Origin: Clostridia bacterium
Lineage (GTDB): Bacteria > Bacillota > Clostridia > Peptostreptococcales > JAAYPU01
Reading direction: 5' to 3'
DNA length: 64,000 bases
Assembly: GCA_016278615.1 (NCBI GenBank)
Contig: JADQBM010000041.1
Location: 6,630-70,629, forward strand
The position numbers and the translations under genes were made by a program. Under the pieces are notes generated by a model that was not told the origin of the DNA, did no database searches, and worked only from the letters and a program-made list of their open reading frames with translations. Positions 5,869-15,533 of this stretch are shown piece after piece. Position 1 is the first letter of the stretch, and the number at the start of each line of letters is the position of its first letter.

Positions 5869-7044
5869 ATGCTCGTATGGATTGAGAATGGTGAAGTTTA
5901 TGCACCGGAGTATTTGGGGAAACAAGACATATTGATAGCGGGGAATAAGATTGAATGCATTTCAAAAAATATTGACATTCAAATTGATGAGAGTCTGATA
6001 AAAAGGATCAACGCAGAAGGGAAAATCGTTGTGCCTGGGTTTATAGATTCTCATGTACATATCATTGGAGGCGGTGGCGAAGGCGGGTTTAAGACCCGAA
6101 CACCTGAAATACAGTTATCGGAGCTGACGCGTTATGGGATTACTACTGTAATAGGGTGCTTAGGAACAGATGGAACTACAAGAGGCTTAGCCAGTTTGTT
6201 AGCTAAAGCAAGGGCATTAGAGGAAGAGGGCATTACGGCCTATATTTATACAGGCTCATATGAGGTGCCTTGCGTTACCTTAACTGGGAACATAAGAGAA
6301 GATATAATACTCATTGACAAGGTCATAGGAGCTGGCGAAATTGCTATTTCAGATATAAGGTCCTCACAACCCACTTCAGATGAAATCAAAAGAATTGTTG
6401 CCGATGCAAGGACAGGGGGCATTTTATCTGGCAAATCAGGAATTACCCTATTTCATTTGGGTGATGGAAAAAGAGCCATTGACTTTTTAAAAGACATACG
6501 AGACCATACAGAAATACCGGTGACACAAATGATTCCAACCCATGCTAATAGAAATCAAGAACTATTTAAGGAAATCATAGAGTATGGGAAACAAGGCGGT
6601 CTTGCAGATTTCACCACCACAACAACGGAACAGTATTTAGAAGAAGGGGAAACCAAGTGCAGCATTGCTTTAAAAATTATGTTAAAAGCCGGTGTTCCTA
6701 TAGAAAACATTACTTTTAGTTCAGATGGACAAGGGAGTCTTTCTCTTTATGACAAAGAAGGCAATTATATAGGCTGTGATATAGGAAAACCTGCAACCTT
6801 ATTTGCTGAAGTCAAAGATGCCATTATGGAGGAAGGCATACCCCTTGAAGAGGCCATTAAAGTCATAACATCCAACCCCGCAGACATATTAAAACTGCCA
6901 CACAAAGGATATCTAAGAAAAGACTACGATGCCGACTTGGTGATTATGGACAAAAATAAACTTGAAGTGGAAACAGTCATTGCAAAAGGGGTTGTGATGG
7001 TTGAAGGGAAAGAAGTATTGGTAAAGGGTTTTTTTGAGAAATAG
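5869..7044 (+). CDS. iadA: Isoaspartyl (beta-aspartyl) dipeptidase
   Basis: 391-aa zinc-dependent amidohydrolase-superfamily enzyme that splits beta-Asp-X dipeptides arising from protein ageing or cyanophycin breakdown. The N-terminal metal motif is DSHVHIIGGGGEGG (about 61-74), then GITTVIGCLGTDG. IPTHANRN and SSDGQGSL supply later metal and catalytic residues. The length matches the family. AAAGGAG precedes the ATG. A separate upstream terminator indicates its own transcription unit. Its proximity to an arginase-family gene would suit use of beta-Asp-Arg, but that is inference. Confidence 0.92.
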   Translation: MLVWIENGEVYAPEYLGKQDILIAGNKIECISKNIDIQIDESLIKRINAEGKIVVPGFIDSHVHIIGGGGEGGFKTRTPEIQLSELTRYGITTVIGCLGTDGTTRGLASLLAKARALEEEGITAYIYTGSYEVPCVTLTGNIREDIILIDKVIGAGEIAISDIRSSQPTSDEIKRIVADARTGGILSGKSGITLFHLGDGKRAIDFLKDIRDHTEIPVTQMIPTHANRNQELFKEIIEYGKQGGLADFTTTTTEQYLEEGETKCSIALKIMLKAGVPIENITFSSDGQGSLSLYDKEGNYIGCDIGKPATLFAEVKDAIMEEGIPLEEAIKVITSNPADILKLPHKGYLRKDYDADLVIMDKNKLEVETVIAKGVVMVEGKEVLVKGFFEK

Positions 7045-7273: not shown

Positions 7274-7349
7274 GGGGCATTAGCTCAGTGGATAGAGTCG
7301 CTGACTTCGAATCAGTTGGTCGGGAGTTCGAATCTCTCATGCCTCGCCA
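7274..7349 (+). tRNA. tRNA-Arg (anticodon TCG)
   Basis: The acceptor GGGGCAT pairs with ATGCCTC, the anticodon stem is GCTGA/TCAGT with loop CTTCGAA (anticodon TCG), the T arm is GGGAG-TTCGAAT-CTCTC, and CCA is encoded. Its 3' half from the anticodon loop onward is repeated at 13496-13542 and partly at 13743-13765 and 15660-15705. It has therefore served repeatedly as an integration target and is the left attachment site of the neighbouring element. Confidence 0.95.
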
Positions 7350-7350
7350 A
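7304..7350 (+). repeat. attL: 3' end of tRNA-Arg
   Basis: The segment ACTTCGAATCAGTTGG through GCCAA within tRNA-Arg is shared with attR at 13496-13542, apart from two changes in the T stem. It is the inferred recombination core of the element. Confidence 0.85.
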
Positions 7351-7354
7351 ATAA

Positions 7355-7430: not shown

Positions 7431-8357
7431 TCACTTTTTCATGAACCTATCCATGTTAGAAACGTTGGATTTACTGATGATGACCTGATTTGCAAGGTGT
7501 AAATATCTTCGAGTAGTATTAGTATCACTATGACCTAAAATGGTCATCAATTTAAATAAATCGACCGTGCCATATTGCTGATAAGAATTGATACAATAAT
7601 TGGTTGCAAAGTTATGGCGAAGCTTATGAGGACTTATATTTAACCCAGTTTTTTTATTAATACGATAGAATATCATCTTTACTGAATCCATGGTCACACG
7701 GTCTCGATACTGGTTAATAAATAAGATGTCAGCATCTTTATTTGGTAAAGGACGAAGGTTAATATATCTCATAAGATATTTTTTAGTATAATAACCGATA
7801 GGCACTAATCGTTCTTTATCGCCTTTGCCATGTACTTTAATGAAGTTGTTTCGGAAGTCTATATCAGAATAATTTATTTGTATAACTTCATTTAGCCGTA
7901 ATCCAGAATCAAGAAAGAGAGCAATTATTGAACGGTTGCGAAATTGTAGCCATGTACGACTTCCAATAGTATCGAAAATATCGTTTATTTCATCATTACT
8001 ATATATCTTCACAAGCTTCTTAGACTGTTTAGGAAGCTTCACTTTTTTCTTAATATTAGATACAAAATCTTCATCTTCAAGATAGGAAATAAAGACTTTT
8101 AAATCCCTTAGATATGTACCTATAGAAGCCTTACTCAATTTAGTATCATATTTAATAAAATTGCTTTCTTTTATCTTATTAAACAAATGAGTTGAGTAAT
8201 CGTTTACTACAGAGATATTTAGATCCCCAGTATCAATATCACCAATAAAATTAATAAATCTGTTAACATTACGGTCATAGTTTTCAATAGTTTTTTCGCT
8301 AAGACCTTTAAGTTTACATTGACCGATAAACATATCTAAACATTTAGAGAGAACCAT
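7431..8357 (-). CDS. Tyrosine site-specific recombinase (integrase)
   Basis: 308-aa XerC/phage-type integrase. An N-terminal SAM-like core-binding domain (about 1-100) is followed by the catalytic domain with the full set of residues: Arg154 (SGLRLNEV), Lys178 (HGKGDKER), His244 and Arg247 (HKLRH), His276 (GHSDTNTT) and nucleophile Tyr285 (RRYLH). It should integrate and excise the element at the tRNA-Arg 3' end, which lies about 80 bases beyond its stop. It starts one base after the stop of the upstream rep gene, indicating translational coupling. Confidence 0.95.
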   Translation of the reverse strand: MVLSKCLDMFIGQCKLKGLSEKTIENYDRNVNRFINFIGDIDTGDLNISVVNDYSTHLFNKIKESNFIKYDTKLSKASIGTYLRDLKVFISYLEDEDFVSNIKKKVKLPKQSKKLVKIYSNDEINDIFDTIGSRTWLQFRNRSIIALFLDSGLRLNEVIQINYSDIDFRNNFIKVHGKGDKERLVPIGYYTKKYLMRYINLRPLPNKDADILFINQYRDRVTMDSVKMIFYRINKKTGLNISPHKLRHNFATNYCINSYQQYGTVDLFKLMTILGHSDTNTTRRYLHLANQVIISKSNVSNMDRFMKK

Positions 8358-8358
8358 A

Positions 8359-9327
8359 TCAACACCATCCTAATTGCATTAATTCGTATTCTATAGATAA
8401 AGCATCATACCCCTTTAAAACATGATAAGGGAAGAAGGCTTTTGTTTTTTTCCAATCATCTTTCCAGTAGATAGACTTCATGCTTTTAAAAGCCATAGCC
8501 ACAAAAGAAGTAAGTAATTCTTTAAATTTTGATTTAATTTCATAAGTATTCACTTCAATATCACCAACAAATTCATTGCTATATTCAAAGTTATCTTTAT
8601 GAAATTCTTGTAATGTTGACAGAAATTCTTTATACACTCCATTATCAATATTTAATTTATATACAGATGGTTTATTAAGACCCCTGCTACAGAAATACCT
8701 TTTGTTATTAAGTAACCCCTTATCTTTATATAGCTGATAATTTGATTCACCCTGAGAATTACTTTTAGAAATATATTTGCATACGTATTTAGCAAAATTA
8801 TCTATTTGGGAAGTATCTTTTATAGATTCGACAAATACAAACCCTTGATTCCAAATATCAGATAATACAGATTGTTCAATATAAGGAAGATTGAAATATA
8901 AGACATGATAATGAATAGCCCCACGCTTTTGAAATTCGGGGATACAAATATATTTTAAGACATTCCTATTTATTTTATAAAGATAGTACGATAAACGCTT
9001 ATTAAAGTCAGTAAATTCTTTATTAGCTTCTTTTATATTTTGTATATTATCAGCAAAAGTCAGTGTCCAAAATTTCGGTCTTTGAATTGAACCATAATAA
9101 TCTAATGTATCAATATTACAAGCAACTATATCAAAAACCTTTTTACGAGCACGGATAGAAGAACGAAGAAAATTATCTAATGCTTTCTCACTACTTCCTT
9201 TTTTTATACCAATTTTATTTCCTTGCTTCTCTTGATAATTAAAAAGTTTAGTTTGAGAATAACGCTTTATAGAAACAGATTCACCGGAGATTTTTAACTC
9301 TAAATTGTAGCTCATTAGACCTAACAT
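8359..9327 (-). CDS. HUH-type rolling-circle replication initiator (Rep)
   Basis: About 322 aa. FWTLTFAD near residue 90 looks like Rep motif 1. AIHYHVLYF near 141-149 is the HUH metal-binding motif, and AKYVCKYISK near 182-191 is a motif 3 with the candidate nicking tyrosines. This is the order found in rolling-circle Rep proteins of small plasmids and filamentous phages. It probably nicks an origin in the non-coding segment just upstream. I chose the ATG at 9327 because AAAGG lies about 9 bases before it, while the alternative at 9336 abuts the ribosome site. It is coupled to the integrase. Confidence 0.8.
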   Translation of the reverse strand: MLGLMSYNLELKISGESVSIKRYSQTKLFNYQEKQGNKIGIKKGSSEKALDNFLRSSIRARKKVFDIVACNIDTLDYYGSIQRPKFWTLTFADNIQNIKEANKEFTDFNKRLSYYLYKINRNVLKYICIPEFQKRGAIHYHVLYFNLPYIEQSVLSDIWNQGFVFVESIKDTSQIDNFAKYVCKYISKSNSQGESNYQLYKDKGLLNNKRYFCSRGLNKPSVYKLNIDNGVYKEFLSTLQEFHKDNFEYSNEFVGDIEVNTYEIKSKFKELLTSFVAMAFKSMKSIYWKDDWKKTKAFFPYHVLKGYDALSIEYELMQLGWC

Positions 9328-9336
9328 AATACACAT

Positions 9337-9706: not shown

Positions 9707-9719
9707 GATGGTGAATATA

Positions 9720-10010
9720 ATGAAAGATAATAAGGAAGGTAAAGAAAATAAGATTTCTTTAAACTTAAGGCTAAATGAAAAATTACATAAGGAATTAAAG
9801 ATGATATCTAATAGAGAAATGCGCTCATTAAATAGCCAAATCGAGTATTTTGTTTTAATGGGAATTTTAGAATATAAAGGATTCCGTGAAGTAATAGAAA
9901 AAGGACTATTGGACGAAAATGAGACATATTATGATGTACTCGATTGGAATGAAGATGAATATAATAATTATCTGATGATTAAGGATCATCTTGAGAGAAA
10001 TGGCAAATAG
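9720..10010 (+). CDS. Ribbon-helix-helix (Arc/CopG-like) regulator
   Basis: 96-aa protein. The N-terminal part KISLNLRLNEKLHKELKMIS followed by LNSQIEYFVLMGI fits the beta-alpha-alpha ribbon-helix-helix DNA-binding fold; the C-terminal half is acidic. I prefer the ATG at 9720 since AAAAAGG directly touches the ATG at 9708. Standing opposite rep, it is a likely copy-number or transcription repressor of the element. The promoter is probably around TGATACTGTTATAGTATAA (9681-9699). Confidence 0.7.
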   Translation: MKDNKEGKENKISLNLRLNEKLHKELKMISNREMRSLNSQIEYFVLMGILEYKGFREVIEKGLLDENETYYDVLDWNEDEYNNYLMIKDHLERNGK

Positions 10011-10089: not shown

Positions 10090-10242
10090 ATTGCTCATTT
10101 TTTCCTATTTATATAATTTGTGATATAATTAAATTGGCATATTTTGTAATAATGTATAAAACCCCATATTTATAGAGAGAGTCCAATGCGAGAAATGCTT
10201 AAAAAAGTTTATACAATTGTATAATAAGGAGTCAAGAAAAAC

Positions 10243-11424
10243 ATGATCGTTTCTGATGATTTCGTTAAGTGGAAAGAGAAAGAAAATATTGTGCCAATAG
10301 ATATTCCAGAAAAAAATGAATACATTTGGGCACTAATGAACATTGAACATAGTTGGACAGGTAGAATGGATGTACAGATAGCAAATACTTTCATAATGGA
10401 ATCAGTTCAATTAATATGCAATGCTATAGTTCTTTTTGAACAAGGTTATTTTGATTGTGCTTATTATTCTCTCCGCCAATCAATTGAAGTTTCAACTACG
10501 ATTATATATTTATCGGATATACCTGAAGAATTAAGAGAAGAAAAGCTCAAAGCATGGAAGCGAACTAAAGATTTTCCTATGCAAGGACAAATGTTAAACT
10601 ATTTAAAAGAGAAAGGATATATATTCTCTGACTTAAAAGAAAAATTATCTGATTATTTTTCTCAACTCTCAAAACATAGTAAGCAACTTAATAAAATAGT
10701 TCATAAGCAAGGGCTAAAATATTTTTACTTATCACGAAATCATCCAATGAATAAAAAAGAAGAGCTAACGAATTTTTATTTATCTGAATTTAAGACTTAT
10801 ATAGAGATATGCATTGGATCTGTTGCAATAATGCGGTTAGCTATCGACCCATATCCCATACTTCTCATGGACCCAGAGATTTATCATCGTTCTTTTGATT
10901 CAATGACAGATGCATATACTGAAGAATTCGTAGAAAAGTATATTGGCAATCAAGTTTTATCGAAATATAAGAAAACAGATTTTTATATTTCTTATTATGA
11001 ACAACATATGCAAGAAGAAAAAAAGCATCCATGTGTTTCAGATGTAGTAAAGCTTAAATATATCGATAAAGAACAGATGGATTTAATAATTAGCCAAATA
11101 CATCTCGTGAGCAGTCCTGATCGTTGTGCTGTAATGCTTACATCATGGTGTGAAAAGATTGCAAAGACTTATTGCTACGGAGGATGGATGCCTTATTATA
11201 CCAATACGAAAACGAATAGAAAAGCTACGTCATGGAGTGGTATGGATTTTAAAGCTTTTTCAGAAAATGATAAAAAATACAATCAGCTATATGATGAGGC
11301 ATTTATTTCTGTATTTAATATTCAGGGCGAAGATTTTTTTATTGAGCATAACGAAATATTAACGGAATCCGAGATTAAAAAAATAAATAATAATATCGCA
11401 ACAATGAATTTAGAAAATAAATAA
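10243..11424 (+). CDS. Cargo protein 1, unknown; helical, HEPN-reminiscent
   Basis: I do not recognise this 393-aa protein with confidence. There is no signal peptide or TM segment. The part around residues 50-85 (ANTFIMESVQLICNAIVLFE and then GYFDCAYYSLRQSIEVSTT) resembles the helical face of HEPN-like domains in phage-defence and toxin proteins, and NKIVHKQG lies near 150. A canonical Rx4-6H RNase motif is not clear. The C-terminal half has no visible motif. AAGGAG precedes the ATG. The next gene starts 14 bases after the stop, so they form one operon inside a mobile element; defence or an element-specific role is inference. Confidence 0.7.
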   Translation: MIVSDDFVKWKEKENIVPIDIPEKNEYIWALMNIEHSWTGRMDVQIANTFIMESVQLICNAIVLFEQGYFDCAYYSLRQSIEVSTTIIYLSDIPEELREEKLKAWKRTKDFPMQGQMLNYLKEKGYIFSDLKEKLSDYFSQLSKHSKQLNKIVHKQGLKYFYLSRNHPMNKKEELTNFYLSEFKTYIEICIGSVAIMRLAIDPYPILLMDPEIYHRSFDSMTDAYTEEFVEKYIGNQVLSKYKKTDFYISYYEQHMQEEKKHPCVSDVVKLKYIDKEQMDLIISQIHLVSSPDRCAVMLTSWCEKIAKTYCYGGWMPYYTNTKTNRKATSWSGMDFKAFSENDKKYNQLYDEAFISVFNIQGEDFFIEHNEILTESEIKKINNNIATMNLENK

Positions 11425-11437
11425 AGGAGAAAAAATA

Positions 11438-12460
11438 ATGAAAAATGATCTGATTAAGATTATTGATCAATTTGGATCAATATTAACAAAACACGAATAC
11501 AATCAATATATTCCAAAATTAAGAGATTTCTTAGTAAAGTATATTATTGAAAACAAATCTCATGTTTCAAGTGTAGAGGAATTATTCAAATATGAATTTA
11601 CTAAGGTTGATATTATTCTATGTACAGAATACTACATCATCAATAATGACAATGTAAAAAGCAAATCTGCTATTGATGATTTTTTAATAGCAGTAAATAG
11701 GATCTTTGATGAAATAATTAATAATCGTTATCCTAACCAAAACTTAATAACGATAAGACCTTTTACCAATTTAAATAAAGATGTTGAAAATGGGTTGCTC
11801 AATAAAGGGATAATTCTTGAAGAAAGAAAAGCCAATCCTCCAATAAATGAAAATCACTATAATTTCATATTAGAATATATGAAGAATGATAAAAAAAGTA
11901 AAAAGTTAAAAACTCAACAAGTTTATATTATATTCAAACTTTTATTACTTTACGGATTCAGTTTTGATAGAATAATTAATTTATATAAAGAAAACTACAA
12001 TTCAGAAACTAGAACGTTAGAAATAGTATATAATATGAATCCAAAAAGAAGCTTTATTCTTGAATTACCATACTCATTAAACAATGAAATATCGAATTAT
12101 ACTAATTCCCTTAATAATAAAAATTATAGTGACAACCATATGTTTATAACAAGAACTGGCAATCCTATAACACATGCATTTTTAAATGAATATATTACCG
12201 ACATTAAACAAGCATATTTTTCTATTAATAAGCTAGAAATAAATACAGAGAATCCTTTTACGCCTACAGGATTTGCAAAATATGCTGTTATTAATATGAT
12301 TCTGGACGGTGTTAATCAATCAGTGATATCAGATTTAACAGGATTTATGCAAGATATGTATTCAGATTGTCAATATATAGTAAACGAAAAGAAATTATCG
12401 AATCGTAATAGATACATTAATCAAATGATTCGAGGTATTTCTACTTATGATGATATATAA
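11438..12460 (+). CDS. Cargo protein 2: tyrosine-recombinase fold lacking catalytic residues
   Basis: 340 aa. Residues 160-320 follow the pattern of an integrase catalytic domain. FKLLLLYGFSFDRIINL stands where integrases have LLxTGLRxxEL, PFTPTGFAKYAVINMIL stands for SPHxLRHxFA, and VISDLTGFMQDMYSDCQYIV stands for the LGHxxxxTTxxYxH block. By that alignment the catalytic Arg is Ser175, the HxLRH residues are Thr277, Ala280 and Lys281, and the later His is Phe303. Only Tyr313 remains. It probably binds DNA or is structural and does not recombine. A strong ribosome site (AAAGGAG) and operon position argue it is functional. Confidence 0.7.
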   Translation: MKNDLIKIIDQFGSILTKHEYNQYIPKLRDFLVKYIIENKSHVSSVEELFKYEFTKVDIILCTEYYIINNDNVKSKSAIDDFLIAVNRIFDEIINNRYPNQNLITIRPFTNLNKDVENGLLNKGIILEERKANPPINENHYNFILEYMKNDKKSKKLKTQQVYIIFKLLLLYGFSFDRIINLYKENYNSETRTLEIVYNMNPKRSFILELPYSLNNEISNYTNSLNNKNYSDNHMFITRTGNPITHAFLNEYITDIKQAYFSINKLEINTENPFTPTGFAKYAVINMILDGVNQSVISDLTGFMQDMYSDCQYIVNEKKLSNRNRYINQMIRGISTYDDI

Positions 12461-12591: not shown

Positions 12592-13401
12592 TTGAATACA
12601 CAGAAAGATGATAAAATAGTAAACAGAGAGAGTTGGGCTAAAATTATTTTATCTGGAATTGTTATTATAACAATCATATATAAAATATTAAATAATACAA
12701 TTAATGTTCAAATATCAAACTTAGATGTATCAGATTTTCTTTCAATAATGCTTGCTTTTTTTGCTATTAGTCTTTCAGTATTATTCTATTTCAAAGCTAC
12801 AGAGACAAGCAATACTTTCTATAATAATACTTATAATTTTACGAAAACAATAGGTGAAGTTTTAGGAAGGATGGAATCTGGATTTGGAGAAAAGCTTAAA
12901 CATATAGAAGACTATACAAGTACTAATTTTAAAAATCAAGAAAATACAAAAAAAGAAATAGAACAAGAAGAAAGGCAACTTCAAAAAGCTGAAAAAGAGA
13001 AAACAAAACTTATAGAAGATTTAGCTAATAAAGCAAAATTAGAAAAACAGGAAAAGAATCAATTTATAACAAAATTAATCCATAAAGATCAAGAAATATC
13101 TGTGTTAAGAGAAGAAATCCACAATTTAAGAAATAAATATAATTCAAACAGCTTATTAGATGTAGATAGCAATACATATAATAAAATTAGGAACTTCATG
13201 AACAAAGCATTAACACTTGAAGATATGATTAAATTAGGAGGAGGTTACAAAAATATCTCATTGAAAGAATTGAATGATATTATGTTAAAATTTCCTAATG
13301 AATATATAGAGATAATGAGACACAATGGAATAATTACAGTAGATGGAAAAATTACTGATAAAGGATTAGAATTCATGAAAAGAGTTACTAAAATTAGATG
13401 A
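12592..13401 (+). CDS. Cargo protein 3: membrane-anchored coiled-coil protein
   Basis: 269 aa, not recognised. Two N-terminal TM segments (about 17-37 and 48-68) leave a short loop outside. A long charged coiled coil (about 95-195, rich in E, K and Q) follows, then a compact C-terminal domain (about 200-269) with LEDMIKLGGGYKNISLKELN and a closing GIITVDGKITDKGLEFMKR that looks like a winged-helix end. The start is TTG after AAAGGGGAG. It lies 131 bases after cargo gene 2, in the same direction and just inside attR. The topology would suit a sensor or membrane effector; that is inference. Confidence 0.7.
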   Translation: MNTQKDDKIVNRESWAKIILSGIVIITIIYKILNNTINVQISNLDVSDFLSIMLAFFAISLSVLFYFKATETSNTFYNNTYNFTKTIGEVLGRMESGFGEKLKHIEDYTSTNFKNQENTKKEIEQEERQLQKAEKEKTKLIEDLANKAKLEKQEKNQFITKLIHKDQEISVLREEIHNLRNKYNSNSLLDVDSNTYNKIRNFMNKALTLEDMIKLGGGYKNISLKELNDIMLKFPNEYIEIMRHNGIITVDGKITDKGLEFMKRVTKIR

Positions 13402-13495: not shown

Positions 13496-13542
13496 ACTTC
13501 GAATCAGTTGGTCGGGGGTTCGAATCCCTCATGCCTCGCCAA
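13496..13542 (+). repeat. attR: copy of the tRNA-Arg 3' end
   Basis: A copy of tRNA-Arg from the anticodon loop to CCA. It differs from attL only at two positions that form a base pair in the T stem (A-T at the tRNA, G-C here). It lacks the 5' half, so it is not a tRNA gene. It marks the right end of the element. Confidence 0.9.
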
Positions 13543-13543
13543 A

Positions 13544-13584: not shown

Positions 13585-13595
13585 GTTTAGATATA

Positions 13596-13623
13596 GATTC
13601 GAACTCTCGACCAACTGATTCTT
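13596..13623 (-). repeat. Inverted fragment of the tRNA-Arg 3' half
   Basis: GATTCGAACTCTCGACCAAC continuing to TGATTCTT is the reverse complement of tRNA-Arg from the anticodon stem to the T loop, with two mismatches to attR. With attR and the terminator between them it forms a long inverted repeat. A more diverged counterpart lies at 17596-17625 behind another terminator. Confidence 0.75.
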
Positions 13624-14369
13624 CCTCTGTGGGGGATGTACCGAAGGACCAATTGGTCAGATCCCGGGGACATTCCTCAAAGAGTAGGCCGTCTTGCAGA
13701 GGTGTGTCCCCTTTCCTTTGATGAGCAAAGCGACGGGAGGTAGTTCGAATCTCTCATGCCTCGCCCGTTGAGATCCACAATAACAACCGAGTGCTGCTAT
13801 AGAAAAGAAAACTCCTATTGAATAACTGAAAAAAACTTAATTATTCCTTTGCAATCAAAGAGGAGGTTAAGGTTAAGTTTAGAAAGAACCTGCAAGAAAA
13901 AAATTTAGAAATATAAAGAGATTTAGAAACATAATGGAAGGTATGATAAAAAACGGAAAAATATCGTATTATGATTTGCTCATTGGAATTAAGAATATCA
14001 TTTAAAAAATAAGCTAAAATTTTAAATAAAGAGCGTGCTAACTAAAATTATTAAAATAGATTTAAACTAAGTAGTAAATAAAATGTTATTATTAAAAGAA
14101 TGAGTTCATTTTTTTAATAACAAGTAAACAAAACTAGAATTATGAAGATGTATTTAAATAAAAAGCAAATGAAACAAGTGTTATTTAAAAAAATAGACTT
14201 AAATTTTAATAAAGAGTGTGTTAAACTTAAATTATTGAAATAGATTTTAATAAGAGATAAAAAAAATATATTGTTTTTAAAAATAAGCTAAAATTTTACC
14301 AATGGAACAAAGTAAAATAATGAGCAATGTTAAAAAAATAAGTAGAAAAACAAAGAGGAGATTTACAAT
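13624..14369. other. Non-coding remnant region with att relic and AT-rich repeats
   Basis: About 750 bases without a convincing gene. A partial tRNA-Arg 3' copy (AGTTCGAATCTCTCATGCC..., 13743-13765) lies in it, preceded by GGGGACATTCCTC near 13666, related to the array at position 1. From 14000 to 14310 diverged direct repeats of about 65 bases occur (TAAGCTAAAATTTTA...AAAGAGCGTGCTAA and TAGACTTAAATTTTAATAAAGAGTGTG). A short reading frame at 13932-14003 is too weak to call. It reads as scar tissue from earlier insertions. Confidence 0.6.
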
Positions 14370-15533
14370 ATGCAAAATTCTAATAGAGCAGGTACATATA
14401 TAAAGCAGCAACATGATTACAGTGCATTTATTCCAAAACCACTTCCCGTTGATCCGCCACTGGTTTTTGATGCTGAAATGATAACATTATTATCTAAAGC
14501 AGATAGACAATTAGGAAGATTAGATGGAATTACACAAATACTACCTAATCCTGATTTATTTGTAGCTATGTATGTTAGAAAAGAAGCAGTTTTAAGCTCT
14601 CAAATTGAAGGCACTCAAGCATCCTTGATTGATGTTTTGCAAGAAGAGGAAGAGAAAATAGATGTTAATAAAAGTGTTGAAGAAGTAGTAAATTATGTAA
14701 AGTCTATAAATTATGGGTTGAAAAGATTAAATGATTTACCATTATGTTTACGATTAATAAAAGAAATACATGAAATACTTCTTCAAGATGGACGGGGGAG
14801 CGAAAGGAATCCTGGGAAATTTCGGAGATCTCAAAATTGGATAGGACCTGCAGGATGTACGTTATCGACAGCAACCTTTGTGCCACCACCAGTACACGAA
14901 ATGAAAATTGCAATGGGAGACTTAGAGATGTTTATCCATAAGGATGATGATATACCTCCTTTAATTAAAATTGGAATGGTTCATGCCCAATTTGAGACTA
15001 TCCATCCATTTTTAGATGGTAATGGTAGAATGGGTAGGCTTATAATAACATTTTGGTTATGTCAACAGGAAATATTGTCACAGCCCTTACTATATTTAAG
15101 TTACTACTTTAAAAAAAATAGAACTGAGTATTATGATAGACTCATGGAGATTAGAACTAAGGGAAAATGGGAAGAATGGGTCAAGTTCTTTTTAAAGGGA
15201 ATAAGTGAAGTATCAGTTGAGTCAATAAATACAGCAAAAGCTATACTAACTATGAAGGATGAATATAACGATACTATAAATAGAACTGTCAAAAACCCTT
15301 CTAATGGCTTAAAGTTATTAGAAATAATTTTTGAACGTCCTATAGTGACAATCACTAAAGTATCAGAATTACTCAATATATCTTATCCCACAGCTAATTC
15401 ATTAATAGGAGAGTTTTGTAATTTAGGCATATTAACTCCTTATGATAATGTAAGAAGAAATAAGAAATATTACTTCAAGAAATTTATTGATATATTACAA
15501 GTTGGAACAGAGTTATCTCTAAAGTCACTTTAG
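14370..15533 (+). CDS. Fic-family protein (predicted AMP-transferase)
   Basis: 387 aa. The Fic motif HPFLDGNGRMGR (212-223) has the catalytic His212 and the phosphate-binding GNGR. An inhibitory (S/T)xxxE(G/N) motif, SSQIEG, is at 76-81 on the N-terminal side, giving a class II, self-inhibited Fic protein. A C-terminal winged helix follows (about 300-370, SELLNISYPTANSLIGE). Such proteins transfer AMP or another nucleotide moiety to a target hydroxyl. AGAGGAG precedes the ATG. It is the only gene of its small att-bounded unit. Confidence 0.92.
   Translation: MQNSNRAGTYIKQQHDYSAFIPKPLPVDPPLVFDAEMITLLSKADRQLGRLDGITQILPNPDLFVAMYVRKEAVLSSQIEGTQASLIDVLQEEEEKIDVNKSVEEVVNYVKSINYGLKRLNDLPLCLRLIKEIHEILLQDGRGSERNPGKFRRSQNWIGPAGCTLSTATFVPPPVHEMKIAMGDLEMFIHKDDDIPPLIKIGMVHAQFETIHPFLDGNGRMGRLIITFWLCQQEILSQPLLYLSYYFKKNRTEYYDRLMEIRTKGKWEEWVKFFLKGISEVSVESINTAKAILTMKDEYNDTINRTVKNPSNGLKLLEIIFERPIVTITKVSELLNISYPTANSLIGEFCNLGILTPYDNVRRNKKYYFKKFIDILQVGTELSLKSL

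Follow-up and report, generated by a model that had tools for sequence, protein, structure and literature searches.

What can a recombinase-like protein contribute to the mobile element that carries it when the residues with which such enzymes cut DNA are gone? The question is posed by a gene in the window, by which we mean the whole stretch of 64,000 nucleotides that was analysed (contig JADQBM010000041.1 of a Clostridia bacterium, positions 6,630 to 70,629). There, a small integrated element is flanked on both sides by the 3' part of a tRNA-Arg gene, the two copies lying 6.2 kb apart; its features are as follows.

7304..7351, plus strand: attL, the 3' part of tRNA-Arg(tcg)
7431..8357, minus strand: the element's tyrosine integrase, of active type, with R, K, H, R, H and Y all present
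8359..9336, minus strand: rolling-circle replication initiator of the ORF2/G2P type
9708..10010, plus strand: small regulator of the Arc/ribbon-helix-helix type
10210..10223, no strand: perfect 14-bp palindrome TATACAATTGTATA, just 5' of the first ATG of the cargo operon
10243..11424, plus strand: 393-aa protein with a weak DUF5677 match (E 3e-4, under the cut-off)
11438..12460, plus strand: catalytically dead tyrosine-recombinase homologue of 340 aa, characterised by ORF call, Pfam, AlphaFold, Foldseek, profile alignment and tree
12592..13401, plus strand: 269-aa protein with N-terminal hydrophobic segments and a coiled coil, 131 bp downstream of the dead recombinase
13496..13543, plus strand: attR, a second tRNA-Arg 3' part, with no further copy in the genome

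The cargo of the element thus consists of three genes, encoding the 393-aa protein, the 340-aa dead recombinase and the 269-aa membrane/coiled-coil protein, in the last of which a weak wHTH-PRTase_assc match was found (E 6e-4). By their spacing, the DUF5677-like gene and the dead recombinase share an operon. They were rejected as an obligate pair: the best DUF5677-like homologue from outside has no dead recombinase adjoining it. A homologue of the DUF5677-like cargo protein, 46% identical, is encoded on a 2.7-Mb replicon of Paenibacillus cellulosilyticus (L117, 5001-6143), with no dead recombinase nearby. The element's replication initiator is about 30% identical to the initiators of small phages with single-stranded DNA genomes (Microviridae-like and Spiroplasma phages), which is unusual beside a tyrosine integrase and cargo genes. 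Just beyond attR, the att core recurs in inverted orientation and a partial tRNA-Arg end is present for a third time (13595-13621 and 13721-13777), both probably left behind by previous insertions at this tRNA gene; a gene for a Fic/DOC protein with Fic_N and a winged helix (14370-15533) also lies there. Rfam returned nothing at its gathering score except two tRNAs.

The protein at 11438-12460 is real and is homologous to the tyrosine recombinases (YRs). Its reading frame runs uninterrupted for 340 codons, starts 13 bp past the stop of the preceding gene and has AAGGAG immediately 5' of its ATG, in keeping with the intact frame and strong ribosome site described by the first-pass annotation. 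That annotation's assignment to the tyrosine recombinases also stands. PF00589 matches residues 138-304 weakly (E 5e-4, under the curated cut-off) and is found in six of eight relatives, at best with an E of 1.4e-8. Profile-profile alignment to active YRs gave 98% probability (E 8e-13), and 98.5% (E 2e-15) for the 15-member family; the family profile also matched the solved structures of XerC-like 4a8e (E 5e-8) and XerA (E 4e-5). A helical, core-binding-like domain occupies residues 1 to about 125 and a catalytic-like domain extends from about 138 to 340. The AlphaFold model, made with eight sequences, has a mean pLDDT of 84 and a pTM of 0.60, with uncertainty at residues 320-334; the solved structures that it matched best in Foldseek were Tn1549 Int (E 5e-8), XerA, Cre, XerH and lambda Int. 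Because these are all YRs, the objection foreseen earlier, a fold unlike that of the recombinase catalytic domain, is not upheld: the protein shares both fold and detectable homology with the active enzymes of PF00589.

What it does not share is their active site. We mapped the catalytic columns by alignment to the element's own integrase and over the 15 family members. In place of R-K-H-R-(H/W)-Y the protein has Ser175 for the first Arg, Asn199 for the Lys between strands beta2 and beta3, Thr277 for the second His, Ala280 for the second Arg, Phe303 for the third His and Gln312 for the nucleophile. The losses of Arg, Lys and His reported at first pass are therefore borne out; the statement that the Tyr was kept is not. 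A gap-free count from the conserved Gly302 places Gln312 at the nucleophile position, and the 14 relatives have D, N, E, K, R, I or G in place of the adjacent Tyr313, which is one residue off. The second His, the second Arg and the Tyr are found in no member of the family, and the first Arg in only one of the 15. In most of the second, divergent subfamily (below) the hairpin that bears the Lys is itself shortened. The nucleophile column was placed by sequence alignment, at a point in the chain where the AlphaFold model starts to lose confidence, and the call of inactivity is independent of it because the second Arg and second His are absent everywhere. Judged from its sequence, the dead recombinase is catalytically inactive, with all of the strand-cutting residues gone. 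Three basic residues, K167, K281 and R325, are retained in 13-14 of the 15 members.

A search for homologues with the same substitutions, as had been proposed, yielded 14 intact relatives and one interrupted copy from Clostridia, Paenibacillus and other Firmicutes, and none of the intact ones has the second His, the second Arg or the Tyr. Full-length relatives with 38-57% identity occur in Paenibacillus (two intact, one split), Acetoanaerobium, Fusibacter, Terrisporobacter and two uncultured Clostridia, and a further one from the same class has 40% identity. The second subfamily, at about 20-27% identity, occurs in other Firmicutes; its profile matches the window protein with an E of 3e-19, so the link between the two subfamilies is firm. 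A match at L005 was discarded as spurious, its reading frame looking unrelated. The family is rare and patchy, with a handful of members per several hundred genomes; tblastn and pattern scans found no relatives in phages, plasmids or IMG/VR contigs, and Pfam, NCBIfam, PHROGs and PADLOC, as searched, hold no model of its own for it. The Paenibacillus thalictri copy is interrupted by IS3-type transposase genes (L045, 6197-8633). Two members from Clostridia carry C-terminal extensions, one long and helical (L083, 6414-7730) and the other zinc-finger-like with a CxxC...CxxC pattern (L084, 6527-7726).

These two members were omitted from our second tree because of their long branches, leaving 13 family members with 24 active-type sequences. 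The family and the active-type sequences fall on two sides of one branch with support of 100/100, despite a wrong-frame row (L020_3) that both trees took in and that appears in the second as a long branch on the active-type side. The sister of the window protein is the copy from Paenibacillus arenosi (99/99), which belongs to a different class, and this relationship points to horizontal transfer in the history of the window protein. The element's own integrase falls among the active YRs, so the dead recombinase did not arise by a recent duplication of its neighbour. In the closest pair (L039-L040) dN/dS is about 0.23 (dN 0.145, dS 0.62), the remaining pairs being saturated, a value that indicates purifying selection on the family and a maintained function. 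A single clade apart from the active YRs, together with purifying selection, makes this an old, functional, non-catalytic family rather than a decayed copy of the element's integrase. The YR fold, the conservation of the family and the low dN/dS lend good support to the earlier suggestion that a recombinase had been repurposed as a non-catalytic protein.

Two inactivated YRs of known function bear on the question of what that purpose might be. MrpR (YopR; PDB 8A0A) is the master repressor of the Bacillus prophage SPbeta; it has a YR fold with the Arg and His lost, binds operators and represses without recombination, and it keeps Lys169 and Tyr304 (PMC10516654). The dead family resembles it in having a two-domain YR fold of similar length (340 aa against 325), in the loss of the catalytic Arg and His and in its near-neutral charge, but differs in that it has no Tyr. 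As a candidate relative of MrpR it was rejected: the family profile lies closer to active YRs (98.5%, E 2e-15, as above) than to MrpR (51%, E 2e-4), and the window's subfamily alone matches the MrpR profile at just 2%. Moreover, the relatives of MrpR live in large phages, whereas phage records yielded no member of the dead family. MrpR and the dead family appear to have been inactivated in parallel. In SPbeta-like phages the MrpR genes come after a yopQ gene (L093, 7875-10258; L094-L096), and two phage records label relatives of YopQ as DndB-like proteins of DNA sulfur modification.

The other case is TnsF of Tn6022, a protein whose YR domain has lost its activity; it targets a gene and brings in a transposition complex, and it combines zinc fingers at the N terminus with two core-binding domains and only part of a catalytic domain, working with TniQ as its partner (PMC10293859). 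TnsF and the dead family are alike in being derived from dead YRs, and TnsF acts by DNA binding and protein recruitment. In contrast, the dead recombinase has 340 aa with one helical and one catalytic-like domain, it lacks zinc fingers, a second core-binding domain and TniQ, and there are no Tn7-like genes around it. YRs of the XerA/XerC and Tn1549 types have the same fold and are closest by profile and Foldseek, but the residues with which they cut are absent from the dead family. By analogy, MrpR and TnsF would be closest to it in mode of action.

The protein has stayed intact across many Firmicutes without cutting residues and therefore probably holds DNA rather than cutting it. Since MrpR and TnsF show that dead YRs can have roles of their own, we take a sequence-specific DNA-binding regulator of linked cargo to be the most likely function of the dead recombinase, on the strength of analogy and with some reserve. 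The family would have kept the two-domain, DNA-clamping fold of the YRs and given up the strand-cutting chemistry; with its core-binding and catalytic-like domains the protein would hold an operator close to its own operon and thereby control how the linked cargo is expressed, much as MrpR acts in SPbeta. Operon position speaks for such a role, since a same-strand neighbour lies within about 20 bp in the window and at L042, L043, L046, L051, L083 and L084. That it binds DNA, that an operator is its target and that it represses rather than activates are points that we infer. The palindrome TATACAATTGTATA at 10210-10223 is a candidate operator (0.06 matches would be expected in the window with one mismatch allowed), and the Arc-like regulator could equally be its user; it occurs in none of the homologous loci. 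Two observations count against a regulator. The flanks of the homologues hold no shared DNA motif or flanking repeats that might form a binding site, though each regulator could have a distinct operator of its own, and the median pI of the dead family is 6.9, with a mean charge near zero, a low value for a protein that binds DNA. The corresponding medians are 6.5 for the MrpR family and 9.0 for active YRs, however, and the likeness to MrpR, which binds DNA and represses (PMC10516654), speaks for a regulator.

The first-pass annotation had also proposed a DNA-binding regulator, or a decoy, acting on the element's own att sites. The regulator survives, through its likeness to MrpR and TnsF, as our best guess; the att sites do not. 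A decoy or competitor at those sites, or an integration directionality factor, would suit an element with an active-type integrase and clear attL and attR, but such a protein should accompany a YR integrase, and one was found in the fetched flanks of only two of the 15 loci. This weakens the proposal, and the protein is neither derived from the element's integrase, from which the tree separates it, nor like known excisionases in size and fold, so that we regard such a role as improbable. Still less probable is an enzyme with a substitute nucleophile: Cys311, and no Tyr, is the invariant residue there, adjoining the nucleophile column in all 15 members, yet YR phosphoryl transfer is not expected to work without the second His and second Arg, missing from every member, and the first Arg, missing from 14 of them. 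The loss of every catalytic residue might also be the mark of a functionless integrase pseudogene in decay, a reading that we consider nearly negligible in view of the intact frames at 38-57% identity across Clostridia and Paenibacillus, the conserved non-catalytic residues and a dN/dS well under 1.

Two alternatives that preserve a non-catalytic function deserve more weight. YR protomers contact one another through their C-terminal region, and the most conserved stretches of the dead family include NRY(I/V)N, which sits there, as well as an N-terminal QYxPKLRDY. With the neutral charge of the family, this would suit a stand-alone adaptor in which the fold serves as a scaffold for protein-protein contacts alone, DNA contact being gone. 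We think this unlikely: K167, K281 and R325 are retained, and the MrpR family has an equal charge, yet MrpR binds DNA (PMC10516654). The main rival is a targeting or structure-sensing subunit of anti-phage or conflict systems, one that binds a DNA feature of phages or of recombination and recruits or activates an adjoining effector. The neighbours of the family vary from locus to locus, and conflict genes lie within about three genes of the dead recombinase at six of the 15 loci.

L038: two genes after PDC-S56
L046: inside a type I restriction operon
L050: preceded by an HNH nuclease and followed by a PDC-S06 ATPase
L052: in a MoxR-vWA operon
L082: before a type I-C RT-Toprim retron
L084: overlapping an HNH nuclease

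This count has no matched control, the one tried around active YRs being dominated by a single housekeeping operon, and the proximity is therefore suggestive only. To our knowledge, type I restriction systems and retrons function without a dead-recombinase protein. A single common partner was sought by comparing all neighbours against all, and only the HNH genes of L050 and L084 proved homologous (E 1e-8); none of the partners is met twice in the subfamily to which the window protein belongs, and the neighbours at L040, L042 and L043 are ordinary. TnsF provides a precedent for a dead YR as a target selector (PMC10293859). We regard a targeting subunit as possible, and as clearly less probable than a regulator of linked cargo. 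The variety of partners would suit a re-used regulator module and, equally, a subunit for recruitment or targeting.

Few dead YRs are known to act as DNA-binding proteins, MrpR and TnsF among them, and the authors of the MrpR study considered that the recruitment of YRs to such roles is probably more widespread than had been thought (PMC10516654). The family described here is a new and unnamed one of this recently recognised kind; it is separate from MrpR, has been inactivated further, the Tyr being lost too, and is present in several groups of Firmicutes. Weak 'integrase' matches in genomic islands may accordingly be regulators or parts of defence systems. There is a modest chance that this widespread and ancient family supplies anti-phage systems of unrelated kinds (type I restriction, HNH nucleases, a retron, MoxR-vWA) with a plug-in subunit for DNA recognition; if true, this would be a role not known for the YR fold. 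In either event, the family offers small, testable proteins with which to study the functions of the YR fold without its chemistry.
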